DNA from: Verrucomicrobiota bacterium
GTDB lineage: Bacteria > Verrucomicrobiota > Verrucomicrobiia > Limisphaerales > SXTU01
Assembly (NCBI GenBank): GCA_016871445.1
Contig: VHDH01000013.1
Location: 1-49,202, forward strand
DNA length: 49,202 nt
Direction: 5' to 3'
Shown here: piece by piece, positions 24,002 through 49,202 of the stretch
Numbering within the stretch: the first letter of the stretch is position 1
How the letters are laid out: every line of letters starts with the position of its first letter
Notes under the pieces: model-generated
The model's input: the letters and a program-made list of their open reading frames with translations, nothing else
Told to the model about the DNA's origin: nothing
Database searches by the model: none
Made by a program: the position numbers and the translations under genes

Positions 24002-24156
24002 GGTGGAGGGAGATTGGCGGCAGGGCGAGCGGAAGTCGAGTGCCGGCGTGTCACCCAGCGCGATGCTGAGATTGGACACCGAGCGGGTGTTCGGTGCATC
24101 ATCTTGGTCAGAATTCGAACCGGCCAGTGCCCACTGAAGCGCCTAAACCATCGCCC

Positions 24157-26826
24157 ATGCAACGCCTGCTCACTCGGCTGGCGGACGCGGTATATTTGTA
24201 TCCGCGCGCGTTCTTATATCCGCAGGTGGCGCTATTCTGCGTGTGCTTGATCTACACGGTGCGGCACCTCGATTTCCATACCAACCGCAACGACCTCGTA
24301 GGCTCAGACAAGAAGTATCACCAAAACTTCCTCGCGTTCAAAAAAGAGTTCCCCGGTCAGGATGACCTGGTGGTCATCGTCGAGAGTGACCGGCAGGACA
24401 AGAACCGGCAGTTCGTCGAGCGGCTTGGTGCACGGCTAGAGGCAGAGACAAACCTCTTCACAGATGTTTTCTACAAGGGCGACCTCAAGCTAATGGGCAG
24501 CAAGGCCCTCCTGTTCGTGCCGCAGGCCGACCTTCTGGAGTTAGAAAAGAAGGTCAAGGACTACCAGCCGTTCATTAACAACTTCTCGCAGGCGACGAAC
24601 CTAGTTTCGCTCTTCACCATTCTTAATCGCCAGTTTCGCACCGCGAAGCAGGAGGCGAATGCGGAGAACGAGTCCATGCTCGGCGCGCTGCCGGCGCTAG
24701 AGCGTATTGTAAACGAGGCGCGTGCGGGCCTGCAACGGCCCGGCCGGCCACCATCGCCGGGCGTGAGCGCGCTCTTCGGAGGCGGGCCTGAGGCCGAGCG
24801 CGAGATGTATGTAACCTTCGGCAACGGCCGAATGTATCTCGTGACCGCGCACGCGAAGCGGGAGGATCTAAACGGTGCCGCTGTGGAGCGACTGCGCGCA
24901 CTGGTGGCGGAAACGCAGCGTGAAGTGCCGGGCGTAAACGTGGGCATCACGGGCGAGCCGGTGCTGGAGTTTGACGAAATGGCGCAATCGCAAGTGGACA
25001 CCACGCTGGCGACCATCGTGGCACTGGTGTTGGTGCTCATCATCTTCATCTACGGCTATGCAGAAACGGGCCGGCCACTCAAGGCTACCGCGGTGTTAAT
25101 TGTTGGTCTGGCTTATACGATGGGCTACACGACGCTGACGGTCGGACACCTGAACATTCTGACCATTACGTTCGCTCCAATGTTAGTGGGGCTAGCGATT
25201 GATTTTGGCGCGCATCTGATAGCGCGGTTCGAGGAGGAATTGCGGCATGGTAAGTCTGAGCGTGAAGCCATCACGCTGGCGATGGTCAACACAGGCCAAG
25301 GCATCTTCACTGGCGCGGCCACGACCGCGGCGGCGTTCTTCGCAATGGGGATCACAAATTTCAAGGGCATCCAGGAGATGGGCATTATTGCCGGCGGCGG
25401 CCTCATTGTCTGCCTCTTGCCGATGATGACGCTGCTACCGGTGCTGTTGATACGCGGTCGGCAGAACGTGATTGACCGTACCACACCACCAGTGGACCGC
25501 CGCGGGCAAATCGAGCGCCTATGGCTAAACCGGCCAGGCGCGGTGCTAGCGGTGACGGCGGGCCTGTGTGCGTTGAGCGCGGCGCGGCTGGGTCGGGTTC
25601 AGTTCGATTATAACCTCCTGAATATGCAGTCCGCCGGGCTACCGGCCGTGGTCTTCGAGCACAAGCTCATCAACACGGCGTCAAACTCCGTGCTGTTTGG
25701 CGCGGTGGTAGCGGCGGACCTCGAGCAAGCGGCTCGGCTTGAACGACAACTCACCAACCTGACCACCGTTGCAAATGTGCGCTCAATGAGCCAGTTCCTC
25801 GCCGAGGAGACCACTCAGAAGCTCGCGCTTATCCGGCAGATCAAGGCCGACGCTGGGACGGTGAAATTTGCCCCGCTTGACCCGCAGCCGCCGAAAGTGC
25901 CGGAGCTATTGCAGGTGCTGTTCTCGTTCCAAGGCTTTGTCGGCGCGGCGGAGGACGTGGTGCGGAAGGAGGGAGATGCGAAGCTGGCGGAACAGTTCAA
26001 GTCGCTGAAGGGCGCGCTCCAAGCTTGGCGAACCGCGCTGGTTGCCACGCCCGCCGAGCAGGCCGCGCGGCAGTTGGCGCTATACCAGCAAGCGCTGCTG
26101 GAGGACTTAGCGGAAACGTTCACCACGCTCGCCAACCAGCAAGCCAGCCCGCTGCGGCCGGAGGATCTGCCGGACGCGCTGCGCAACCGCTTCATCGGAG
26201 TGACGGGCAAGTATCTGCTGCAAGTCTATCCCAAGACCGACGTATGGCAGCGTGCGCCGCAGGAGGCCTTCGTGAAGGAACTGCGCACCGTGGACCCGAA
26301 CGTGACCGGCACACCCGTGCAACTCCTCGAATACACCACCCTGCTCAAGGACAGCTACGTAAAGGCCGCGTGGTATGCGACAGCGGCCATCGCCGTGATG
26401 GTGCTGCTGCATTTCCGGTCAATCGTACACGTGGTGTTGGCGCTGCTGCCAGTGGCTGTTGGGACTTTGTGGATGGTCGGCTTCATGGGCTGGGTTGGCA
26501 TTCCCTTCAACCCGGCGAACATCATGACCCTGCCGCTCGTAGTGGGTATTGGAGTGACCAACGGCATTCACATCCTCAATCGCTTCGGCGAGGAGAAAAA
26601 ACCCTCCCTTCTGGCCCGCAGCACCGGCCTTGCCGTCCTAGTGTCCGGCCTGACGACCATTGCGGGCTTCGGCAGCCTCATCCTAGCGAAACATCAGGGC
26701 ATCGAAAGCCTAGGCTATGTGATGGCTGTAGGTACAGCTACCTGCATGGTGGCGGCGCTAACCTTGCTCCCGGCGGTGTTGCAACTGCTGCTAAAACTGG
26801 GCTGGCTTAAAGAAAAGGCCCAGTGA
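24157..26826 (+). CDS. MMPL family RND transporter
   Basis: 889 residues with the internal duplication of RND proteins. One membrane helix (about 20-36) is followed by a periplasmic domain (to about 280), a cluster of helices (about 283-433), a further helix near 461, a second periplasmic domain (to about 734) and a last cluster of helices (about 734-885). The layout resembles hopanoid-associated HpnN and other MMPL lipid exporters, which move lipids from the inner to the outer membrane. The charged pair GLAIDFGAHLIARFEEE in the first cluster fits the proton-relay region. The start at 24157 is favoured over an earlier in-frame start at 24094. The next gene, a repeat protein of unknown family, follows 225 bases later. 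Confidence 0.9.
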   Translation: MQRLLTRLADAVYLYPRAFLYPQVALFCVCLIYTVRHLDFHTNRNDLVGSDKKYHQNFLAFKKEFPGQDDLVVIVESDRQDKNRQFVERLGARLEAETNLFTDVFYKGDLKLMGSKALLFVPQADLLELEKKVKDYQPFINNFSQATNLVSLFTILNRQFRTAKQEANAENESMLGALPALERIVNEARAGLQRPGRPPSPGVSALFGGGPEAEREMYVTFGNGRMYLVTAHAKREDLNGAAVERLRALVAETQREVPGVNVGITGEPVLEFDEMAQSQVDTTLATIVALVLVLIIFIYGYAETGRPLKATAVLIVGLAYTMGYTTLTVGHLNILTITFAPMLVGLAIDFGAHLIARFEEELRHGKSEREAITLAMVNTGQGIFTGAATTAAAFFAMGITNFKGIQEMGIIAGGGLIVCLLPMMTLLPVLLIRGRQNVIDRTTPPVDRRGQIERLWLNRPGAVLAVTAGLCALSAARLGRVQFDYNLLNMQSAGLPAVVFEHKLINTASNSVLFGAVVAADLEQAARLERQLTNLTTVANVRSMSQFLAEETTQKLALIRQIKADAGTVKFAPLDPQPPKVPELLQVLFSFQGFVGAAEDVVRKEGDAKLAEQFKSLKGALQAWRTALVATPAEQAARQLALYQQALLEDLAETFTTLANQQASPLRPEDLPDALRNRFIGVTGKYLLQVYPKTDVWQRAPQEAFVKELRTVDPNVTGTPVQLLEYTTLLKDSYVKAAWYATAAIAVMVLLHFRSIVHVVLALLPVAVGTLWMVGFMGWVGIPFNPANIMTLPLVVGIGVTNGIHILNRFGEEKKPSLLARSTGLAVLVSGLTTIAGFGSLILAKHQGIESLGYVMAVGTATCMVAALTLLPAVLQLLLKLGWLKEKAQ

Positions 26827-26851
26827 CGAGAATGCACCCTCATCACTGGGC
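26818..26851 (+). other. Hairpin spanning the MMPL stop codon
   Basis: GCCCAGTGA (26818-26826) pairs perfectly with TCACTGGGC (26843-26851) around a 16-base loop. The last three bases of the first arm are the TGA stop. No U-tract follows. The strongest member of the stop-codon hairpin group. Confidence 0.65.
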
Positions 26852-27051: not shown

Positions 27052-28533
27052 TTGGTTTACACCGCCAATAATTCTCTAAAGGGGGCACTGGAATCCTCGC
27101 AAAGAATCGGAATACGATTCTCACGCTTGTCAGCGCTGGCTTGTCTGCTGTTTACAGCTTTCCGGCTCCTCGCCGCCGAGTGGACCGCCGGTCCGTTTGC
27201 GCACGAGTTTTCGCTTACCCTCGCCACGGGCACTCGCGAGGAATGGCTAGGGCCGCTCTACTACCGCGAGGTTTCCGACGGCCAGATGACTTGGGCCATG
27301 CCCCCGTTTTTCTCTCGCACGGTTAAGCCCGACGTGGAAATGGAGGAATACGATTTCCTTTATCCGTTGCTCTCCTACGACCGCTTTGGGGAGGAATACC
27401 GCTGGCACCTCTTTCAACTCCTGAACTTCTCCGGTGGCCGACAGCAGGACGACCAAGCCGTGGACAAGTTCACGATTTTCCCCTTCTACTTCCAGGGTCG
27501 GTCCGCCGATCCCGCTCACAACTACACCGCGCTCCTGCCCTTCTGGGGCACGCTCAAGAACCGCTTGCTCCGGGACGAGATTAAATTGCGCCTCTTTCCG
27601 TTATACTCCCGCACGGTCAAACGTGATGTGGTGACGGAGAACTACTTGTTCCCCTTTGTGCATCTGCGCCACGGTCCCAAACTCGACGGCTGGCAGTTCT
27701 GGCCGCTCATGGGCCATGAGCACCGCGATCCCTCCATCGGCACCAACTATCTCGGCCTCGAACAGCTTACCCCGGGCCACGACCGCCTCTTCATCGCGTG
27801 GCCGTTCTTCTTTAACCAACACAATGGCATTGGCTCGACGAATCCCGTTCATTACCACGCCCTGCTGCCACTCTACAGCCATCAACGTTCACCCAGCCGG
27901 GATTCCTCCACCTACGCTTGGCCATTTCTAACCTTTACCGATGACCGGGAAAACCGTTACCGCGAGTGGAACCTGCCCTGGCCCTTCATTGGTTTCGCGC
28001 GCGGCGAGGGCAAGCATATGAACCGCGTTTGGCCCTTTTACAGCCACGCAACTAATGCGGTGCTCACCAGCCACTTCATTCTCTGGCCGCTCTATAAATA
28101 CAACCGCGCTCAAGCCGCGCCGCTTGACCGCGAACGCACGCGCTGGCTGATCTACCTCTACAGCGACACGGTCGAGCGCAACACCGCCACTGGCCAATCA
28201 AAGAGCCGAGTCGACCTTTGGCCGCTGTTCAGCGCGCGGCGCGAACTCGATGGGCGCGAGCGCTTCCAACTCCTGGCCTTAATGGAGCCTCTGGTGCCCG
28301 GTAACAAGTCCATCGAACGTAACTGGTCGCCTGTCTGGTCGCTTTATCGCCAGGAGAAAAACCCAGGCACTGGCATGCAAAGCGGCTCGCTGCTCTGGAA
28401 CCTCGCACGTTGGGAGAGTAGCCCGACGAACTCCCGCGCCGCTTTCTTTTTTGGCACAGCGAAGCGCGAAAGGAACGAACACGGCACTCGTTGGCGGTGG
28501 TTTGATTGGAGCGCGCCGTCGTCGGCGAAGTGA
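27052..28533 (+). CDS. Secreted protein with about 14 Pro-aromatic repeats, family unknown
   Basis: 493 residues from a TTG at 27052; a TTG at 27127 would also leave a signal sequence, and no early ATG exists. A hydrophobic signal-like stretch (about 26-42, ending LLAAEW) precedes a mature part with a short motif repeated about 14 times at 15-40 residue spacing: an aromatic or aliphatic residue, Pro, Phe or Leu, then an aromatic. Examples are WPFFFN, FPLYSR, LPLYSH, WPFYSH and WPLYKY. Trp, Tyr and Phe content is very high. This suggests a repetitive beta structure, perhaps a beta-barrel or solenoid in the outer membrane or periplasm. It lies 225 bases after the MMPL transporter. I do not recognise a named family. 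Confidence 0.8.
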   Translation: MVYTANNSLKGALESSQRIGIRFSRLSALACLLFTAFRLLAAEWTAGPFAHEFSLTLATGTREEWLGPLYYREVSDGQMTWAMPPFFSRTVKPDVEMEEYDFLYPLLSYDRFGEEYRWHLFQLLNFSGGRQQDDQAVDKFTIFPFYFQGRSADPAHNYTALLPFWGTLKNRLLRDEIKLRLFPLYSRTVKRDVVTENYLFPFVHLRHGPKLDGWQFWPLMGHEHRDPSIGTNYLGLEQLTPGHDRLFIAWPFFFNQHNGIGSTNPVHYHALLPLYSHQRSPSRDSSTYAWPFLTFTDDRENRYREWNLPWPFIGFARGEGKHMNRVWPFYSHATNAVLTSHFILWPLYKYNRAQAAPLDRERTRWLIYLYSDTVERNTATGQSKSRVDLWPLFSARRELDGRERFQLLALMEPLVPGNKSIERNWSPVWSLYRQEKNPGTGMQSGSLLWNLARWESSPTNSRAAFFFGTAKRERNEHGTRWRWFDWSAPSSAK

Positions 28534-36120: not shown

Positions 36121-36165
36121 AAAGCCCGCTTGAACTCGCCCTCCGGCCCTGTCAGCGTGCGTTTC

Positions 36166-39100
36166 ATGCACTCAAAGTTTTGGCTTAGCCTAGCTGGACT
36201 CGCCGCGTTGCAGGTGACAGTTGCGGCCGGAGAACCGCTCTTCACCAACGACCTCAACCTCGCCATCCCGGCCCTCGCGTCGGACAAGTCCGTTCGCTAC
36301 GATTACGACATCGTGTATGTCCGCGCACCGCGGGCCGGCGACGAGGTGCACAAGCGCTTCTACACCGATTTCTCGCAACCGGTCACGATGGAGCCGGGCG
36401 CGGACCTGATGTTGCTGCGCCCGGACGGCAGGGAGGAGTTGCTCGTCGCGGGCGGCGACGGCTCCATCACCGACCCGATGGTATCGTTCGATGGCGAGTG
36501 GGTTTATTACTCTCATCTCTATAATTTGCAGAAGGCGAACCAGTGGACGCCGCCGCGCGCGGGGGCAGACATTTTCAAAATCCATCTCAAGACCCGGCGG
36601 GTCGTGAAGCTCACCGACCAGACCTTCACGCCCAACACCGGCGCGGCGAAGTGGTCCGATGACTTCCGCACGCCGCAGCCGGGCCGCACGCACTTCGACT
36701 ACGGTGTGTTTAATATGGGACCGTGTCCGTTGCCGGGCGGGCGCCTCGTCTTCACGAGCAATCGCGATGGTTTCCGTCCCTCGAAGGGGTATCCGACGGT
36801 CGCGCTGCAACTGTTCGTGATGGACGACTCGGATGACGGCTTGGGCCGCAACGTGGAGAAAATCGGCCACCTGAACATCGCCGGCGCGTTGCATCCCGTG
36901 GTGCTCGCGGACGGACGAATCATGTTCAGCACGCTCGAGTCACAAGGCATCCGCGGCGACATCCTCTGGGGCGTGTGGACCATCAACCCCGACGGCACCG
37001 GCTGGGCCCCGCTCGTCAGCGCCTTCGACACCGGCGGCGCGCCGAACGGCTTTCATTTCCAGACGCAGCTCTCCGACCACGCGCTCGTCGTCGAGGAATA
37101 CTACAACCAGAACAACTCCGGCTTCGGTGCGTTCATCAAGCTGCCGCCGCAGCCGCCGGCGGGCGCGGCGCAGTTTGGCCCCGCGCATATGCCGAGCAAC
37201 GCGCCGTGGCGCTTCGGTCGCCACTACAACGGCAAGGGCGTGTGGTATCGCATGCCCTTCATGCCTGTCGGCTCGGAATCGCTCACCCGCTTCGCCCGCG
37301 TGGATGACGGCCCCGCCGGCCCTTCCAAGCTGGGCGACAAGAATTCTGCCGCCGTCGGCAAGTTCACGCATCCCTCCGGCGCGCCCGACAATCACCTGCT
37401 CACCGTCTATTCGCCCGGCCCGGCGAACCATCAATACAAACACCTGCCGCAAATTGACGGCGGGCTTTACCTGCTCAAGGGCGGCACGGCGATTGACGAA
37501 CCCGCGCAGCTCCGGCTCATCAAGAACGACCCGAACTACAACGAGTGCTGGCCGCGCGCAGTCGTTTCCTACGCCCGTATCTACGGCGTGAAGGAGCCAA
37601 AGCGCCTCGCGCCGCTGGCCAACGACGGCGCGCTTTCGAAGCATTTGCCCGCCGGCTCGCCGTTCGGGCTCATCGGCTCATCGAGCCTCTACAAACGCGA
37701 AAGCTACCCGAACGGCATCGTCCCGCCGGGCAAAGTCACGGCCACTTACGCGGGCGGCACAGACCCGTGGCGCGGACTCGATGCCTTCACCAGCCATGGC
37801 AACGGCATGCCGCTCAACCTCCACAACCAGGGCGGCGACATCGGCCTCTACGAAAACAGCGACATCCACGCGCTGCGCATCCTGGTGATGGAGCCGACCA
37901 CCGACCGCCAGCGCGGTGCCGACGCGGGCCGGCGCTTCGCCAATCACGCCAACGAACGGCTTCGCATCCTCGGCGAGATTCCCGTGCGCAAGTTCACCGG
38001 GGCCGACGGCGAACAGCCGCGCGACCCGGACGGCCATCCCGACACCAGTTTCCTCGCCAAGATCCCCGCGGACACCACCTTCACGTTCCAAACGCTCGAC
38101 CGGCGCGGCATGGTGCTAAACAACTCGCAGACTTGGCACCAGCTTCGCCCCGGCGAAATCCGCAACGACTGCGGCGGCTGCCACGCACACAGCCAGAAGC
38201 CGACGGACTTCGCCCTCACTGCCGCCGCGAAGCCCGACTACAAGGTCTGGGACCTCATCAACACCACGCCGCTGCTCGCTGCCAAGCGCACTGCCGCCGC
38301 GCAGCCCCAGTGGGACGTGGCGAACCAAACCGGTCTGCGCGTAACCGACGGCGGGCCGCACGACGTGGAATATTGGCGCGACGTGCTGCCGATTCTCCAG
38401 CGCAGTTGCGTTGCCTGCCACTCCGCGAAGTCCGGCTCGACGCCCGCCAGCAAGCTCGACCTCGACGCTGACGACCAGCTCGTTCCGCGCGAGAACACGG
38501 GCAAGTTTCCCGGCACTTACTACCGCCTCGCGCTGGATGAGCGGGCGCAGTTCGGTCACAAGCCCATCGGCTACGACTCGTGGGGTTACCCCAATGCGTC
38601 TCGTTACATCCGCAAGCTCGCCTCACGCCGCTCGCTGCTCATCTGGAAAATCTTCGGCGAACGCCTCGATGGCTTCTCCAACGACACGCATCCCTCCGAA
38701 CCGGAGCCGGGCGCGGGTTACTTCGCGCACAAGGGCGAGCGGGTGCCGACGGACAAGAACCGCCACCGCTATGACCTCGACTTCCTCGGCAGCCAGATGC
38801 CACCGCCGGACGCGGTCGCCGGTGGCCACAAGCTGCCCGACGGACGCGTGGTGAAAGTCGCGCCGCTCACCGATGAAGACCGCCTGACGTTGGTGCGGTG
38901 GATTGACCTCGGCTGTCCGATTGACCTCGACCGCGCCCCCGCCAGCCAGCGCGGCTACGGCTGGTTCCTCGACGACCAGCGCCCCACGCTTACACTCACC
39001 ACGCCACGCCCCGGCGCGAACGCGTCGCTCGACCGCATCCTGCTCGGCGCGCACGACCTCTACACGGGCCTCGACCCCGCGAGCCTCACGGTCACGGCCG

Positions 39101-39291
39101 ACTTCACAGTCAACGGCATCGCCCCGGGCGAAAACCTTGCGGCGAAGTTTAAGCCGCTGGCCCAAGGCGTGTGGGAACTCAAGCTGAACTCGCCAATAAA
39201 AGACCTCGCCCGCGCGCAGTTGCTTGTCGCCGTGAAGGACAAGCAGGGCAACCTCACCCGCATTGAGCGGAGTTTTTCAGTGAAGCAATAA
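36166..39291 (+). CDS. HzsA-related dihaem propeller protein
   Basis: 1041 residues, secreted (signal peptide about 1-20). The N-terminal two thirds form a beta-propeller with DIVYVRAPRAGDE and repeated blocks such as RPDGREELL and FTSNRDGF, like the middle domain of hydrazine synthase subunit A. Two haem c sites follow: CGGCH (669-673) and CVACH (748-752). The C-terminus includes a LVRWIDLGCPIDLD block usual in planctomycete-type cytochromes. HzsA itself makes hydrazine in anammox bacteria, but close relatives are common in Verrucomicrobia and Planctomycetes that do not do anammox, so hydrazine chemistry must not be assumed. A periplasmic electron-transfer or sugar-oxidation role is possible. 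The start at 36166 begins the signal peptide. Confidence 0.85.
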   Translation: MHSKFWLSLAGLAALQVTVAAGEPLFTNDLNLAIPALASDKSVRYDYDIVYVRAPRAGDEVHKRFYTDFSQPVTMEPGADLMLLRPDGREELLVAGGDGSITDPMVSFDGEWVYYSHLYNLQKANQWTPPRAGADIFKIHLKTRRVVKLTDQTFTPNTGAAKWSDDFRTPQPGRTHFDYGVFNMGPCPLPGGRLVFTSNRDGFRPSKGYPTVALQLFVMDDSDDGLGRNVEKIGHLNIAGALHPVVLADGRIMFSTLESQGIRGDILWGVWTINPDGTGWAPLVSAFDTGGAPNGFHFQTQLSDHALVVEEYYNQNNSGFGAFIKLPPQPPAGAAQFGPAHMPSNAPWRFGRHYNGKGVWYRMPFMPVGSESLTRFARVDDGPAGPSKLGDKNSAAVGKFTHPSGAPDNHLLTVYSPGPANHQYKHLPQIDGGLYLLKGGTAIDEPAQLRLIKNDPNYNECWPRAVVSYARIYGVKEPKRLAPLANDGALSKHLPAGSPFGLIGSSSLYKRESYPNGIVPPGKVTATYAGGTDPWRGLDAFTSHGNGMPLNLHNQGGDIGLYENSDIHALRILVMEPTTDRQRGADAGRRFANHANERLRILGEIPVRKFTGADGEQPRDPDGHPDTSFLAKIPADTTFTFQTLDRRGMVLNNSQTWHQLRPGEIRNDCGGCHAHSQKPTDFALTAAAKPDYKVWDLINTTPLLAAKRTAAAQPQWDVANQTGLRVTDGGPHDVEYWRDVLPILQRSCVACHSAKSGSTPASKLDLDADDQLVPRENTGKFPGTYYRLALDERAQFGHKPIGYDSWGYPNASRYIRKLASRRSLLIWKIFGERLDGFSNDTHPSEPEPGAGYFAHKGERVPTDKNRHRYDLDFLGSQMPPPDAVAGGHKLPDGRVVKVAPLTDEDRLTLVRWIDLGCPIDLDRAPASQRGYGWFLDDQRPTLTLTTPRPGANASLDRILLGAHDLYTGLDPASLTVTADFTVNGIAPGENLAAKFKPLAQGVWELKLNSPIKDLARAQLLVAVKDKQGNLTRIERSFSVKQ

Positions 39292-41770: not shown

Positions 41771-41878
41771 GCGTAGAACTTCCATCGTTCGGGCGGGCTG
41801 GCGCGCTTGTGTGTGTTCCTCCTGCTCAAGCCTAGACGGTGCAGTCTTTGCGTCACCCGCCCGGACCTAAAAAATAAT

Positions 41879-44134
41879 ATGCGACAATCCAAGATTCGTT
41901 CCTTTGCCTTGCGCCACGCGCTGATCACCGCGTCGCTCATGAGCAGCGTCTTGCTCGCGAAGGTGGCTTCCGCGCAGACCGCCACAAACAGGCCCGCCGC
42001 GAAGGAGCCCGTCAAATTGCCCACCGTCGTCGTGACCGGCGAGTCCCAGGCGGACGCCACCGTGCAGCCCACGTTTCTTCCGGCGGTCGAGGGCACACGC
42101 ATTTACTCGGGCAAGAAGACTACAGTGATTGATTTCGATGCGATGCCGCTGATCCAGTCAGACAACTACCGGCAGGCCTTCACTAAGACGCCCGGACTAA
42201 TCGTCAGCGAGATGCCTAACCCTGCCTTCCTCAACCTCGGCTCGCGCGGCATCGGCGATCCCCACGAGTCGCAGGACCTGATGGTGCTGCGAGACCGCAT
42301 CCCGTTCGCGATGGACATGATCGGCTATCCCACCGTGTATTACGCGCCGCCGCTGACCTCGGTGGACCGGTTGGAATTCGTCCGGGGCGGGGCCTCGCTG
42401 CTGTTCGGCCCGCAGCCAGCGGGGGCATTGAACTATGTCACGCACCAACCGCGCCGCGACCGCGCGTTCGCCGCACGCACGGACCAGGTGTTCGGCTCGG
42501 ACAACCTCTATTCCACCTACACTTCCGTGGAAGGCACGTCGGGCCGCGTGGGCTACTTGGCCTATGTCGATCACCGGCAAGGCGACAGCTTCCGCGATGT
42601 GAACAGCGACTTCCGCGTCACCGGCGGCACCTTCAAGCTGGTGCTGGACGCCGACCGGGAAACGCGGTGGACGCTGGGCTTCGATGCCTTCAACGGGGAC
42701 AGCGGCGAGCCGGGCGGGCTGACGCTCGGCACGGCCGCGCCTCTCGGCGGCTCGGTGTTCAACTACTCCGCCAACCGCAACGCCACGCAGCACGCCTTCG
42801 ACCGCGTGCGGGTCGAGCGCTACGCGCCCTCGCTGACCGTCGAGCATGACTTCAGCCCAACCACGCGGGCCGAGGCGCGCGTCTGGGGCGGTTACTCGCG
42901 GCGGTTCAGCCGTCGGGAGACGGATGTCGGCTTCGGCACGCAGGCGGCGGTGCCAGTCGCGGACGCCGATGGCAACCGCGACAACCTGCTTACGGAGCAC
43001 CAATACTATTTTTCCGGCACCGACGTGCGCGCGCGCCACGACTGGACCGCGTGGGAGAACGACCACACGCTCACGGCCGGCTTCACCACATATTACTCGG
43101 ACGCGCCCTTCTCAGTGCGACGTGGCGAGACGGTCACCGCCGAAGACGGCGCGCTCCGGCTGCAGTCACGACGGGGCACGGTTTACGGCGCGATCTTCGC
43201 GGAGAACAAATTCACCTTCTCCAAGTTGAGCATCGTGCCGGCGATTCGCGTTGAGACAATCCACCAAAACATCACCGAACTGGCCAACAACGGCACCGGC
43301 GAAGCCGTGACGCCCAAGGCAGTTCTCTCCCGCGATTCCTATGTCGAGGTCGTGCCCCTGCTGGCGCTGGGCCTGGCTTACGATTTCGGGCGCGGACACG
43401 AGGCCTACGCGAATGTCTCTCAAGGTTACAAGGCCAAGACCTTCACCGATGCCGTTCCGTTGGGCACGGCGGACACCGTCAGCGCGAACCTCGAAGCCGC
43501 GCGCTCCTGGACCTACGAACTTGGCCTGCGCGGTGCGCCGCAACCCTGGCTGACCTACGATGTCAGCGTCTTCCGCATTGATTACGACAACCGGTTTGGC
43601 CGCGTCGGTGCGAACATCCAGAACGTGGGCCGCTCCATCAACCAAGGCCTGGATCTGGCCCTCGAAGTGGACCTGATCGGCCTTTACGACGCCCGCACGG
43701 GCGGGCAACCCGGCGAGCGCGACCTGGCTCTCAACTTGCACGGCAACGTGGAGTTCCTAGACGCCCGCTTCGAATCCGGTCCGCTCACGGGCCTGACGCC
43801 GCAATACGCACCGGACCATCTGGTGCGCGTCGGTGCGACGCTGCACAGCAAGCGCTGGGGTCGCGTGGGGCTCATGGGCACGTTTGTAGATAGCCACTGG
43901 GCTAATGACAACAACGGCCTTTTTGCTCCGGCCAATCCAGCCAGTAGCGGTTTTATCCCCGCTTACATGGTCTGGGATCTGTCCGCTGAAGTGCGGCTTT
44001 ATAAGGACTCCGTCTCGCTCCTCGCCGGCATCAACAACCTGCTCGGCGAAGATTACTTCTCACGCGTTCGTGCCGACGGCATCCAGCCCGCCTACGGCCG
44101 TAACTTCTACGCCGGCCTGTCAGTGAGGTTTTGA
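41879..44134 (+). CDS. TonB-dependent outer-membrane receptor (FecA-like)
   Basis: 751 residues. A signal peptide (about 1-32, ending near ASAQT) is followed by a possible TonB box (LPTVVVTGE), the plug domain (about 60-190; RQAFTKTPGLIVSE, DRLEFVRGGASLLFGPQPAGALNYVT) and a 22-strand-type barrel, ending in the terminal aromatic residue GLSVRF. It resembles iron-dicitrate and siderophore receptors. The start at 41879 is preferred to one at 41807. It lies between an AraC regulator and the TonB/ExbB/ExbD genes, all on one strand, so it is probably part of a single iron-uptake system, perhaps regulated by the AraC protein. Confidence 0.93.
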   Translation: MRQSKIRSFALRHALITASLMSSVLLAKVASAQTATNRPAAKEPVKLPTVVVTGESQADATVQPTFLPAVEGTRIYSGKKTTVIDFDAMPLIQSDNYRQAFTKTPGLIVSEMPNPAFLNLGSRGIGDPHESQDLMVLRDRIPFAMDMIGYPTVYYAPPLTSVDRLEFVRGGASLLFGPQPAGALNYVTHQPRRDRAFAARTDQVFGSDNLYSTYTSVEGTSGRVGYLAYVDHRQGDSFRDVNSDFRVTGGTFKLVLDADRETRWTLGFDAFNGDSGEPGGLTLGTAAPLGGSVFNYSANRNATQHAFDRVRVERYAPSLTVEHDFSPTTRAEARVWGGYSRRFSRRETDVGFGTQAAVPVADADGNRDNLLTEHQYYFSGTDVRARHDWTAWENDHTLTAGFTTYYSDAPFSVRRGETVTAEDGALRLQSRRGTVYGAIFAENKFTFSKLSIVPAIRVETIHQNITELANNGTGEAVTPKAVLSRDSYVEVVPLLALGLAYDFGRGHEAYANVSQGYKAKTFTDAVPLGTADTVSANLEAARSWTYELGLRGAPQPWLTYDVSVFRIDYDNRFGRVGANIQNVGRSINQGLDLALEVDLIGLYDARTGGQPGERDLALNLHGNVEFLDARFESGPLTGLTPQYAPDHLVRVGATLHSKRWGRVGLMGTFVDSHWANDNNGLFAPANPASSGFIPAYMVWDLSAEVRLYKDSVSLLAGINNLLGEDYFSRVRADGIQPAYGRNFYAGLSVRF

Positions 44135-44155
44135 GGCGACCGGCACCAGCCGCCT
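44134..44155 (+). other. Small hairpin at the receptor stop codon
   Basis: AGGCG starting on the last base of the TGA pairs with CGCCT (44151-44155) around a 12-base loop. No U-tract follows. A weaker member of the stop-codon hairpin group. Confidence 0.35.
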
Positions 44156-44301
44156 AGCGCAAACTGCCGTAAAAAAATCGCAATTCGGCGTAAGACTGCT
44201 CATCTGACGCTGTTAAATGATCGTAGACCTTGTCACAAAACGAGTTCACAGGTCGTCGGGTGGGGTATAAGATTAAATTCTGTCTCTAAACAATAAGGGC
44301 T

Positions 44302-45069
44302 GTGCCTGCGCAATCTCCAAACACTGATTCCGCCGCCTCCCCGGGCGGCCGGACGGAATTGTCGATGGCTCCCATCCTCACATTGGTGTTGTGGTTGGGC
44401 TGCTTGCTCGTGGGCGGCTTGGGTTTTGTATTACCTTATTCCCGGCCGCAACCATCGCCCCCTGCAGCCATTATCCAAGCAGAGTTGCTGAAGGTGGATC
44501 TAAGCAACGAGCCAGCGCCTCCACCCGATGCCGCTCAACCGCCCGCGCCCGAGTCCGCCGAGCCGCCGCCGCTCTTCGCCCCTCCCACGCCGCCGCCAGC
44601 CCCGCAACTGGTCGCCGTCGCGCTGCCTAGCCCAGCCGTGGCCTTCGCCCTGCCCGTGGAAGGGCCCGCCCGGATTGTCGAACTCAAACAAGCTGCGTTC
44701 GTGCGGCCCGCACCCGTGCAAAAGATTGTCCCCACTGGTCCGCCCGGCCCACCAAGCAATTCCAACCAGCCGAGTGGCAACAACGCCGCCGCGCCCGCTG
44801 TGCAAACGCTCACCTATGGCCAGGGCGAAGGCCGCCAACCTGCACCGCGTTACCCAGAATCAGCCCGGCGCGCCGGACAAGAAGGCACCGTGGTGGTTCG
44901 TCTCAGCATTGGCACTGATGGTCGCGTGCTGGCGGCAGAGCCGAGTGCCCCTTCGCCCTGGAGCGCACTTAATCGAGAGGCCCTGAGAGTAGTGCGCGAG
45001 CAGTGGCAATTTCAGCCTGGACCTGTGCGGCTCTTCGAAGTTGCCATCCGTTTTGAACTGAAGAAGTGA
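44302..45069 (+). CDS. tonB: TonB-type energy transducer
   Basis: 255 residues from a GTG at 44302 (an ATG at 44365 would trim 21 residues). One membrane helix (about 24-45, [20 protein letters not shown]) is followed by a long proline-rich periplasmic spacer (about 50-165) and a TonB C-terminal domain (about 175-250; [20 protein letters not shown], and [10 protein letters not shown]). TonB passes energy from ExbB/ExbD to outer-membrane receptors such as the one upstream. The exbB gene begins right at its end, so they form an operon. Confidence 0.93.
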
Positions 45070-45077
45070 TTTTTAAA

Positions 45078-45806
45078 ATGACTCCCATTTTCGCCAACGT
45101 CGCCGTGGACATTTTCATCAAGGGCGGCCCCATCATGTGGCCGATCCTTGCCTGCCTGGTTGCCGCATTAGTGGTGGTCGCCGAGCGCAGCCTGTGGTGG
45201 TGGCAGCACTACCGCCGCTGCCGTGAGCCCCAGTTGCGCGAAGCGTTCGAGGCTATCGCCGCCGGAGACTTCGACCGCGCCTTGTGCTTGAGCGAATCTT
45301 CACCGGACCCTTACCTGAACACCGTGGGCGAAGGCCTTTGCCATGCTCACTCATCACTGCTGGGCGCTATGCAGCTCCGTGCGACTGACGAATTGGAGCG
45401 GGCAGAAAAACGGCTTTGGATCCTCGGCACGTTCATCACGCTTGCCCCATTGCTGGGCCTGCTGGGCACGGTCACGGGCATCATGCATTCATTTAGTTTC
45501 GTAGGAGAGGAGGCACTCGCGCCGGCGAAGGTCAGCGGCGGTATTGCTGAGGCGCTCATCGCCACCGCCGGCGGACTAGGCATCGCCATCCTGTGCCTAC
45601 TGCCTTACAACTGGTTTAACCGTCGGCTCGCGCACTATCGCGGCAACTTGGAGCGCACCATCAACCACGTCGAGTTGTTGGTGGAATCAGCCAAGCACCA
45701 TGGCCACGACCTCGAAGTCTTCGCCCGCCAACGCGCCATTCGCACGCGGGCCAGTGTCTTCCGCCCGAAGGAAGAAAAGCCGCCCACCTCGGCCGTGACC
45801 CGTTGA
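45078..45806 (+). CDS. exbB: ExbB/TolQ/MotA family proton channel
   Basis: 242 residues. Three membrane helices are expected: one near the N-terminus (about 19-35, [17 protein letters not shown]), two in the middle and C-terminal half ([19 protein letters not shown] and [15 protein letters not shown]), the last two framing the proton path. It works with ExbD as the motor for TonB. The ATG at 45078 is preferred; a GTG at 45066 overlaps the tonB stop. The gene lies 8 bases after tonB and 21 before exbD. Confidence 0.93.
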
Positions 45807-45827
45807 CGTCCATTCCCCCAAAAAACC

Positions 45828-46253
45828 ATGCCCGTCAAACTTGGCTCCAAACTTCCGCCAGAAAACGCTGAGGCGCGCATCGAGATCATTCCGCTGATTG
45901 ACATCATGTTCTTCCTGCTCGCCGCGTTCATGCTGGTGAGCCTGAGCATGGTGAACCTCAAGAGCGTGAAGGTGAACCTGCCCACCGCCACCTCGGCCAC
46001 GGCGGACCCTAAGCGTGACTACGTGAGTCTCTCCGTGGACAAGGCCGGCATGGCCTACCTCGACGCCAAACCCGTCGCCCCCAACGAACTGGCCATCGCG
46101 CTCGCCGCCCTAGTCAAGGCAAACGAAGAGGTGCGCGTTTTCATCAGTGGCGACAAAGACGCCCGGCACGGCGATGTGATCCGCGTGCTGGATATCGTGC
46201 GCGGCACGGGCATCCAGAAAGTGGCCTTCGAGATTCGCACTCCGGAGAAATGA
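45828..46253 (+). CDS. exbD: ExbD/TolR family protein
   Basis: 141 residues. One membrane helix (about 20-40) contains the essential Asp at position 25 (PLIDIMFFLLAAFML), as in E. coli ExbD. The periplasmic domain follows (VSLSVDKAGMAYLD). Part of the tonB-exbB-exbD operon. Its stop overlaps the start of the next gene by 4 bases (ATGA), so translation is coupled. Confidence 0.93.
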   Translation: MPVKLGSKLPPENAEARIEIIPLIDIMFFLLAAFMLVSLSMVNLKSVKVNLPTATSATADPKRDYVSLSVDKAGMAYLDAKPVAPNELAIALAALVKANEEVRVFISGDKDARHGDVIRVLDIVRGTGIQKVAFEIRTPEK

Positions 46254-47812: not shown

Positions 47813-48559
47813 ATGTTTCGGGACATTGGCGGATTGACATTGCTGGTTTGGCGGACGCTTCAGGCGTTGCCGCTAGTGTTTAGGCACGGGCGCAAGGTGC
47901 TGGAGCAGTTCTACGAGATCGGCATGGGCAGCATGCTCATGGTCTGCATCTTGTCGTTCTTCATCGGCGGCGTGCTCGCACTGGAGATTGGCCCAGTAAT
48001 GGTGGAGCGCGGGCTGGCAAACTTCCTAGGCGGCATTGTCGGCCTCGGTTTGTGCCGCGAGCTAGTCCCGGTACTTATGGCCGTGCTAATCGCGGGGCGC
48101 ATTGGCTCAGCAATGGCAGCAGAGATCGGCTCGATGGCCGTGTATCAGGAAATAGATGCACTGCGCACGATGAACATCAACCCCGTGCATTACCTCGTGC
48201 TGCCCCGTATCGTCGCCCTCGCGGTGGGCTTGCCAATGCTGGTGATTTTCGCCGATCTCGTCGGCTGGTTGGGCGGTGCGCTGGTTTGCTCGGCGAACCA
48301 ACAGATCGCTGTGGGGACGCAGTCCTTCTTGTCGAACCTGCGCGCCACGGTGGGGTTGGAGGACGTGTTGCATGGCCTGTACAAGACCTTCGCCTTCGCG
48401 CTGGTCATCGGCACGGTATCGTGCCATCAGGGTCTGGCGACCATTGGTGGTCCGCGCGGCATCGGCCGCACCGTTACTAAAGCCGTGGTCAACTCCATTG
48501 TGCTTATTCTCATCCTCGATTACTTCCTCACGCACCTGCTGGTGCAGCTTGAGAAATGA
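47813..48559 (+). CDS. mlaE: MlaE-type ABC transporter permease
   Basis: 248 residues with about five or six membrane helices. The family blocks are present: EIGMGSMLMVCILSFFIGG, LVPVLMAVLIAGRIGSAMAAEIGSM, given here only as VLMAVLIAGRIG and AAEIGSM, and EIDALRTMNINP. MlaE is the inner-membrane permease of the Mla system, which moves phospholipids between the inner and outer membranes. It overlaps the ATPase gene by 4 bases. The solute-binding partner (MlaD) would be expected further downstream, beyond the window. Confidence 0.93.
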   Translation: MFRDIGGLTLLVWRTLQALPLVFRHGRKVLEQFYEIGMGSMLMVCILSFFIGGVLALEIGPVMVERGLANFLGGIVGLGLCRELVPVLMAVLIAGRIGSAMAAEIGSMAVYQEIDALRTMNINPVHYLVLPRIVALAVGLPMLVIFADLVGWLGGALVCSANQQIAVGTQSFLSNLRATVGLEDVLHGLYKTFAFALVIGTVSCHQGLATIGGPRGIGRTVTKAVVNSIVLILILDYFLTHLLVQLEK

Positions 48560-49202
48560 GCGCCGCGAATAACCACCACGAAAGCGTCCGTGTCGAGGCG
48601 CGCAAACTGCGCAAGTCCTTCGGCGGGCAGGAAGTGCTCCGCGGCGTGAGTTTCAACGTTGAGCGCGGCGAAATCTTCGTGCTTATGGGTCCCAGCGGCA
48701 GCGGCAAGAGCGTCCTGCTCAAGCACATCATCGGCCTAGAAGAGCCTGACGCAGGTCAAATCCTCATCGAAGGACAGGACATTCACACCGAGGGCCTGCG
48801 CGACCGTTACCGCATGGCAATGGTTTTCCAATCCGGCGCACTGCTCAACTCGCTGACCGTCGGAGAGAACGTCGGCCTTTACTTGCGCGAGCACCGGCTT
48901 CAGCCCGAAGCGGAAATTCAGCGCATCATCGCGGAGAAGTTGGAAATCGTTGGCCTAAAGGGTGCCGAGGAAAAAATTCCGGGCGAACTGTCCGGCGGCA
49001 TGAAAAAACGTGTGGCCTTGGCCCGCGCGTTGGTCATAGAGCCGCAACTGATACTCTACGACGAGCCAACCAGCGAGTTGGATCCGCTTATTGCCATCAC
49101 TATCGGGCAAGAAATCCTCGCGCTGCGTAACCGCACGAGCGCAACGAGCATTGTTGTCACGCACGACCGCGACCTCGCGTTCGGCATCGCAGACCGCATC
49201 GC
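48556..49202 (+). CDS. mlaF: MlaF-type ABC transporter ATPase, 5' part
   Basis: The first 215 codons are present; the gene runs off the window. The nucleotide-binding domain is complete to the H-loop: Walker A GPSGSGKS, Q-loop VFQSGALLNSLTV, signature LSGGMKKRVALARAL, Walker B LILYDEPTSELDPL and the switch His in VTHDRDLA. The D-loop reads SELD where SGLD is common. It powers the MlaE permease, which overlaps it by 4 bases. Confidence 0.93.
   Translation, partial: MSAANNHHESVRVEARKLRKSFGGQEVLRGVSFNVERGEIFVLMGPSGSGKSVLLKHIIGLEEPDAGQILIEGQDIHTEGLRDRYRMAMVFQSGALLNSLTVGENVGLYLREHRLQPEAEIQRIIAEKLEIVGLKGAEEKIPGELSGGMKKRVALARALVIEPQLILYDEPTSELDPLIAITIGQEILALRNRTSATSIVVTHDRDLAFGIADRI

Follow-up and report, generated by a model that had tools for sequence, protein, structure and literature searches.

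A secreted-type aromatic repeat protein linked to MlaEFD lipid-transport genes in Verrucomicrobiota

Gene content of the locus

The window, meaning the whole stretch of 49,202 nucleotides of Verrucomicrobiota DNA analysed here, contains the gene of an aromatic-rich repeat protein for which we use the label RPT (Table 1). As a sequence-only reading of this DNA had stated, RPT follows a gene for an MMPL-type transporter, and the two are separated by 225 nt. The upstream product resembles the hopanoid RND transporter HpnN over the whole of the TIGR03480 model, but differs in that its score (595 bits) is under the curated cut-off of 752, as are the scores in all 97 genomes of the window's order, and it is therefore termed HpnN-like only. 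A terminator-like structure on the minus strand (26818–26851), a stem of 15 pairs followed by a T-rich tail, lies just where the HpnN-like gene ends and may bear on whether that gene and RPT are co-transcribed.

On its other side RPT is followed by the gene of a WecA-like glycosyltransferase on the opposite strand. Positions 36130–39291 encode a 1053-aa protein matching the middle domain of hydrazine synthase alpha (PF18582), which is probably a general domain and not a sign of anammox, and homologues of a TonB-dependent receptor plug protein, TonB, ExbB and ExbD stand in a row at 41807–46253, upstream of a gene for MlaE. This MlaE gene and the part of the MlaF gene that follows it (47813–49202) were missing from the sequence-only reading, though they lie inside the window; the corresponding mlaD would be past the contig end. 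Elsewhere in the genome a second, distant MlaE-MlaF-MlaD set of a different subfamily was found (G000:C12, locus L095, 1628–4282). The genome also contains a squalene-hopene cyclase gene scoring above cut-off and an HpnG-like gene, together on another contig, so that hopanoids are likely made; these genes would fit a role of the HpnN-like pump in moving hopanoids.

Table 1. Positions of RPT, its parts and the transporter genes in the window
Feature	Position	Strand	Basis and remarks
HpnN-like MMPL/RND transporter, 910 aa, directly upstream of RPT	24094..26826	+	PF03176; TIGR03480
RPT, secreted-type aromatic LWP[LF][YF]-repeat protein, 493 aa	27052..28533	+	ORF with TTG start
Signal-peptide-like segment, RPT N-terminus	27052..27183	+	Hydrophobic stretch LSALACLLFTAFRLLAA ahead of the conserved mature part; low pLDDT
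RPT repeat region, 15 conserved Pro motifs	27244..28233	+	All 15 in short inter-strand connections (AlphaFold)
MlaE permease, RPT-linked type, 19 kb downstream	47813..48559	+	PF02405, E=3.4e-69; TIGR00056 above cut-off
MlaF ABC ATPase, cut by contig end	48556..49202	+	Translation; MlaF model, 330 bits; 4-nt overlap with mlaE stop

Sequence features of RPT and its family

The start codon of RPT is uncertain, and conservation among homologues starts at about residue 47. The N-terminus is Sec-signal-like and has no lipobox. By a simple rule (a hydrophobic stretch plus A-x-A), 77 of 78 loci of distant homologues have a signal-like N-terminus as well. A lipoprotein was considered and rejected, since the mature protein of the window has no Cys and a lipobox-like pattern was found in only six of the 78 loci. 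Aromatic residues (F/W/Y) make up 16.7% of the mature protein.

Twelve strict [WFLIYMV]P[FL][FYWLIM] motifs are found between residues 104 and 390, whereas 20,000 shuffles of the sequence gave 0.60 on average and never more than 5. Fifteen motif prolines (residues 68, 85, 105, 144, 163, 183, 201, 218, 251, 273, 291, 311, 328, 346 and 391) are kept in at least 93% of 27 homologues, and 13 of them are invariant. The sequence-only reading, which had described about 14 strict repeats, a signal-like N-terminus and high aromatic content, was right on these three points. It had also called the spacing of the motifs irregular, and here it has to be corrected: the spacing is quasi-regular, at 17–22 residues or multiples of this, with distances of 33, 39 and 45 at degenerate units of the window's RPT. 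Among 107 homologous sequences, some of them near-identical, 60% of the spacings are 16–22 residues and 23% are 33–44. The repeat profile reads x-L-W-P-(L/F)-(Y/F)-(S/G/T). Positions -2, -1, +1 and +2 around the proline are 88–100% hydrophobic; farther from it charged residues account for about 20–60%, and Arg is frequent at +6.

Homologues of RPT were identified in 10 of 11 genomes of the genus, 88 of 97 of the order and 172 of 388 of the phylum. Six of the records (L012, L015, L016, L025, L031 and L038) have titles that name Klebsiella pneumoniae, Akkermansia muciniphila or Proteobacteria; their gene content groups with the window's Verrucomicrobiota order, and the titles look wrong. No plasmid-borne relatives were found when looked for. 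Single-protein and profile searches with RPT gave no Pfam, NCBIfam or PDB-sequence match, and ten distant homologues matched no family model; no homology to MlaA (PF04333) or MlaC (PF05494) was detected by Pfam in RPT or in those ten. The same searches and Foldseek gave no known family of unrelated role, and a search of open-licence papers returned no earlier account of the protein. RPT would represent a family of repeats, and perhaps also a fold, so far absent from Pfam and the PDB.

Linkage of RPT to MlaEFD and to the HpnN-like gene

Across the rest of the phylum RPT is the first gene of a conserved block. Pfam assigned the genes that follow it to MlaE, ABC_tran and MlaD, and the same-strand order RPT-MlaE-MlaF-MlaD was found at 69 of 71 loci; no other gene family is common to the RPT loci of the phylum. 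In the window's order the arrangement was found at 34 of 38 loci, made up of 16 of 18 and a further 18 of 20, the latter picked because HpnN is not adjacent to RPT in them. Some order loci (L019, L032, L193 and L197) have RPT with no Mla genes nearby, and at L032 neither HpnN nor Mla genes occur inside 6 kb of the RPT homologue. The window's genus is an exception in which the block is split: in the window the MlaE-MlaF pair is on the same contig as RPT but 19 kb away, an RPT-type MlaE is found in 9 of 11 genus genomes, and in the other genomes that list both genes they are on different contigs.

When scored with a model made from RPT-linked MlaE, the MlaE of the window reaches 334 and the second MlaE of the genome 130. 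Most linked MlaE proteins score about 290–430 and those of RPT-negative genomes about 200–230, a gap that is due in part to the model having been built from RPT-linked MlaE. In a tree of MlaE, the RPT-linked proteins form two well-supported groups, between which lie long branches and a non-RPT group whose placement is weak, and the linked and unlinked labels are separated with two changes. Judging from this tree, the link between RPT and MlaE may have a single origin.

Conserved linkage to an MMPL gene, which the sequence-only reading had suggested looking for, was found within the order and not beyond it. The HpnN-like gene adjoins RPT at all seven genus loci and at 17 of the 19 other loci of the order that have room for it. 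RPT is present in 88 of the 97 order genomes, the HpnN-like gene in 86 and both in 85; they are adjacent in 50 of the 88, a count depressed by fragmented MAG contigs. It could be argued from these figures, and from the hopene cyclase of the genome and the staying together of HpnN and RPT in a genus where MlaEFD is elsewhere, that RPT is dedicated to hopanoid export, with the HpnN-like pump as its partner, and that its link to MlaEFD is secondary. We consider this unlikely. Outside the order the HpnN-like gene is beside RPT at none of 74 loci, compared with 69 of 71 for MlaEFD, so the Mla link is the broader and probably the older one; inside the order, MlaEFD is kept at 18 of the 20 loci without an adjacent HpnN. 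The phylum-wide partner of RPT is therefore MlaEFD and not the MMPL transporter. Of the earlier proposal that RPT is a lipid-export partner of the MMPL protein, the envelope lipid-transport context and the secretion-like nature of RPT stand, and the MMPL protein as defining partner does not.

Distribution of RPT, MlaA and MlaC

Among 388 genomes of the phylum, RPT was found in 172, MlaE in 360, MlaA in 152 and MlaC in 46. RPT and MlaA are nearly exclusive of each other, occurring together in 18 genomes where 67 would be expected (Fisher p 8.5e-27, in a test that ignores phylogeny, so that one or a few ancestral replacements could yield much of the signal). RPT and MlaC occur together in 8 genomes against 20 expected, again with phylogeny ignored. 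The genome of the window itself has no match to MlaA (PF04333) or MlaC (PF05494), and none of the 20 MlaE-negative genomes listed contains RPT. In four genomes (G111, G188, G220 and G355) an MlaE has MlaC and MlaA inside 4 kb while RPT is on a different contig; in G111 and G188 the RPT loci (L155 and L151) carry MlaEFD.

Neither RPT nor MlaA was found in 82 of the 388 genomes, which indicates that some MlaEFD systems run without either. A diverged RPT was looked for beside MlaE at 20 loci of RPT-negative genomes, and no motif-rich neighbour was seen. There are also MlaEFD operons with no nearby RPT in genomes that have no MlaA (L157, L158, L160 and relatives); these may have another partner or none. 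In RPT-negative families such as f23, f28 and f39, MlaA is contained in ORFs of 600–880 aa, far above its usual length, suggesting fusion with another domain.

A published survey located MlaA, MlaB and MlaC chiefly in Proteobacteria and detected no β-barrel on the MlaD of PVC bacteria, which leaves the outer-membrane partner in PVC unassigned (PMC10665443). With hits in 152 of the 388 genomes analysed here, MlaA is common in parts of Verrucomicrobiota as well.

Predicted structure

AlphaFold, run on RPT with 27 relatives, predicted an all-β meander of about 44 strands (pLDDT 84.8, pTM 0.64), in keeping with the repetitive β fold suggested earlier. A second run on the homologue L026 reproduced this pattern and these scores, although the two runs share most of the alignment and are not independent. 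In both, the strands are mostly six residues long, which is short for a usual transmembrane β-barrel (about nine or more). All 15 conserved prolines are in gaps of 3–5 residues between predicted strands, so the connections would be of two classes, one formed by the hydrophobic motif and one by polar loops. In such a model a hydrophobic L-W-P-L-Y edge would run along a long β-ribbon, and lipid might be contacted along this aromatic edge.

Foldseek returned no global match to the model, with TM-scores of at most 0.24. The weak local matches were to propellers, engineered single-layer OspA, teneurin YD shells and ApoB100. Propellers head the list, but their TM-scores of about 0.1 led us to reject a β-propeller of WD40 or LRP6 type. 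OspA, the Rhs/teneurin YD shell and the ApoB100 belt resemble RPT as series of antiparallel hairpins; with TM-scores no higher than 0.24 and no sequence similarity, they are not the same fold on present evidence.

If the ribbon were straight, 44 strands at 4.8 Å would measure about 200 Å, near the width of the periplasm, and RPT might then span the periplasm as a lipid bridge, similar in function to LptA or AsmA with an unrelated fold. The in-register L-W-P-L-Y connections with their charged flanks would suit such a bridge, as would the weak local matches to the single layers of OspA and to ApoB100. In grooves of the LptA type as usually described, hydrophobic residues lie on one face of the strands, while those of RPT gather at the connections. 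This difference, the pTM of 0.64 and the fact that the MlaD of these systems is of the long type, itself able to form a tube, make a bridge improbable. It is less probable still that RPT carries no lipid and instead holds MlaEFD in position as an envelope scaffold, either structural or binding glycans (of LPS or peptidoglycan): aromatic-rich hairpin repeats can bind sugars, as choline-binding repeats do, and the RPT repeat has many Arg at +6, but RPT matches no known glycan-binding family and its loci across the phylum share only MlaEFD.

Proposed role of RPT

The gene context, with MlaEFD and the HpnN-like pump, places RPT in intermembrane lipid transport, and on the strength of that context we put the probability that it belongs to a lipid-transport system between the two membranes at about 0.85. 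As RPT is beside MlaEFD across the phylum and mostly where MlaA is missing, it probably supplies a part that this machine would otherwise lack. A possible role, and on balance the one that we favour, is that RPT does the job of MlaA/MlaC at the outer-membrane side and, in the window's order, is used by the HpnN-like pump as well. Verrucomicrobiota would then have a variant MlaEFD (ABC/MCE) system whose secreted partner RPT, in the periplasm or associated with the outer membrane, acts at the place that MlaA/MlaC have in Proteobacteria and takes lipid from, or hands lipid to, the long MlaD channel where this faces the outer membrane. A location at the outer membrane would fit such a role. In the order, the HpnN-like RND transporter would probably use the same RPT acceptor or conduit, plausibly for hopanoids, so that RPT may be shared between the two pumps. 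More tentatively, the RPT ribbon may be a new single-layer fold with an unbroken L-W-P-L-Y edge that serves an Mla-type system throughout the phylum as lipid conduit or as receptor at the outer membrane, having independently replaced MlaA/MlaC and being common to the RND hopanoid pump; we regard this fuller version as doubtful.

Two known systems are useful for comparison. The Mla system of E. coli (MlaFEDB-MlaC-MlaA-OmpC) is alike in that homologues of its MlaE, MlaF and MlaD adjoin RPT, and RPT is in the genomic place of MlaC/MlaA; RPT is unrelated to these two in sequence, much larger, and all-β by prediction. The minimal transenvelope MlaEFD system of Veillonella parvula is alike in having a long MlaD and no MlaA or MlaC, but in that system MlaD has a C-terminal barrel that forms the outer-membrane end, and tolC and tamB come next in the operon (PMC10665443). 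The RPT systems differ from it in having a separate secreted-type protein ahead of mlaE.

How an MlaEFD system without MlaA, MlaC or an MlaD barrel gets to the outer membrane is the question on which RPT bears (PMC10665443). RPT is a specific candidate for the outer-membrane partner in nearly half of the phylum genomes sampled, and it ties ABC/MCE and RND lipid pumps together through one secreted-type protein.
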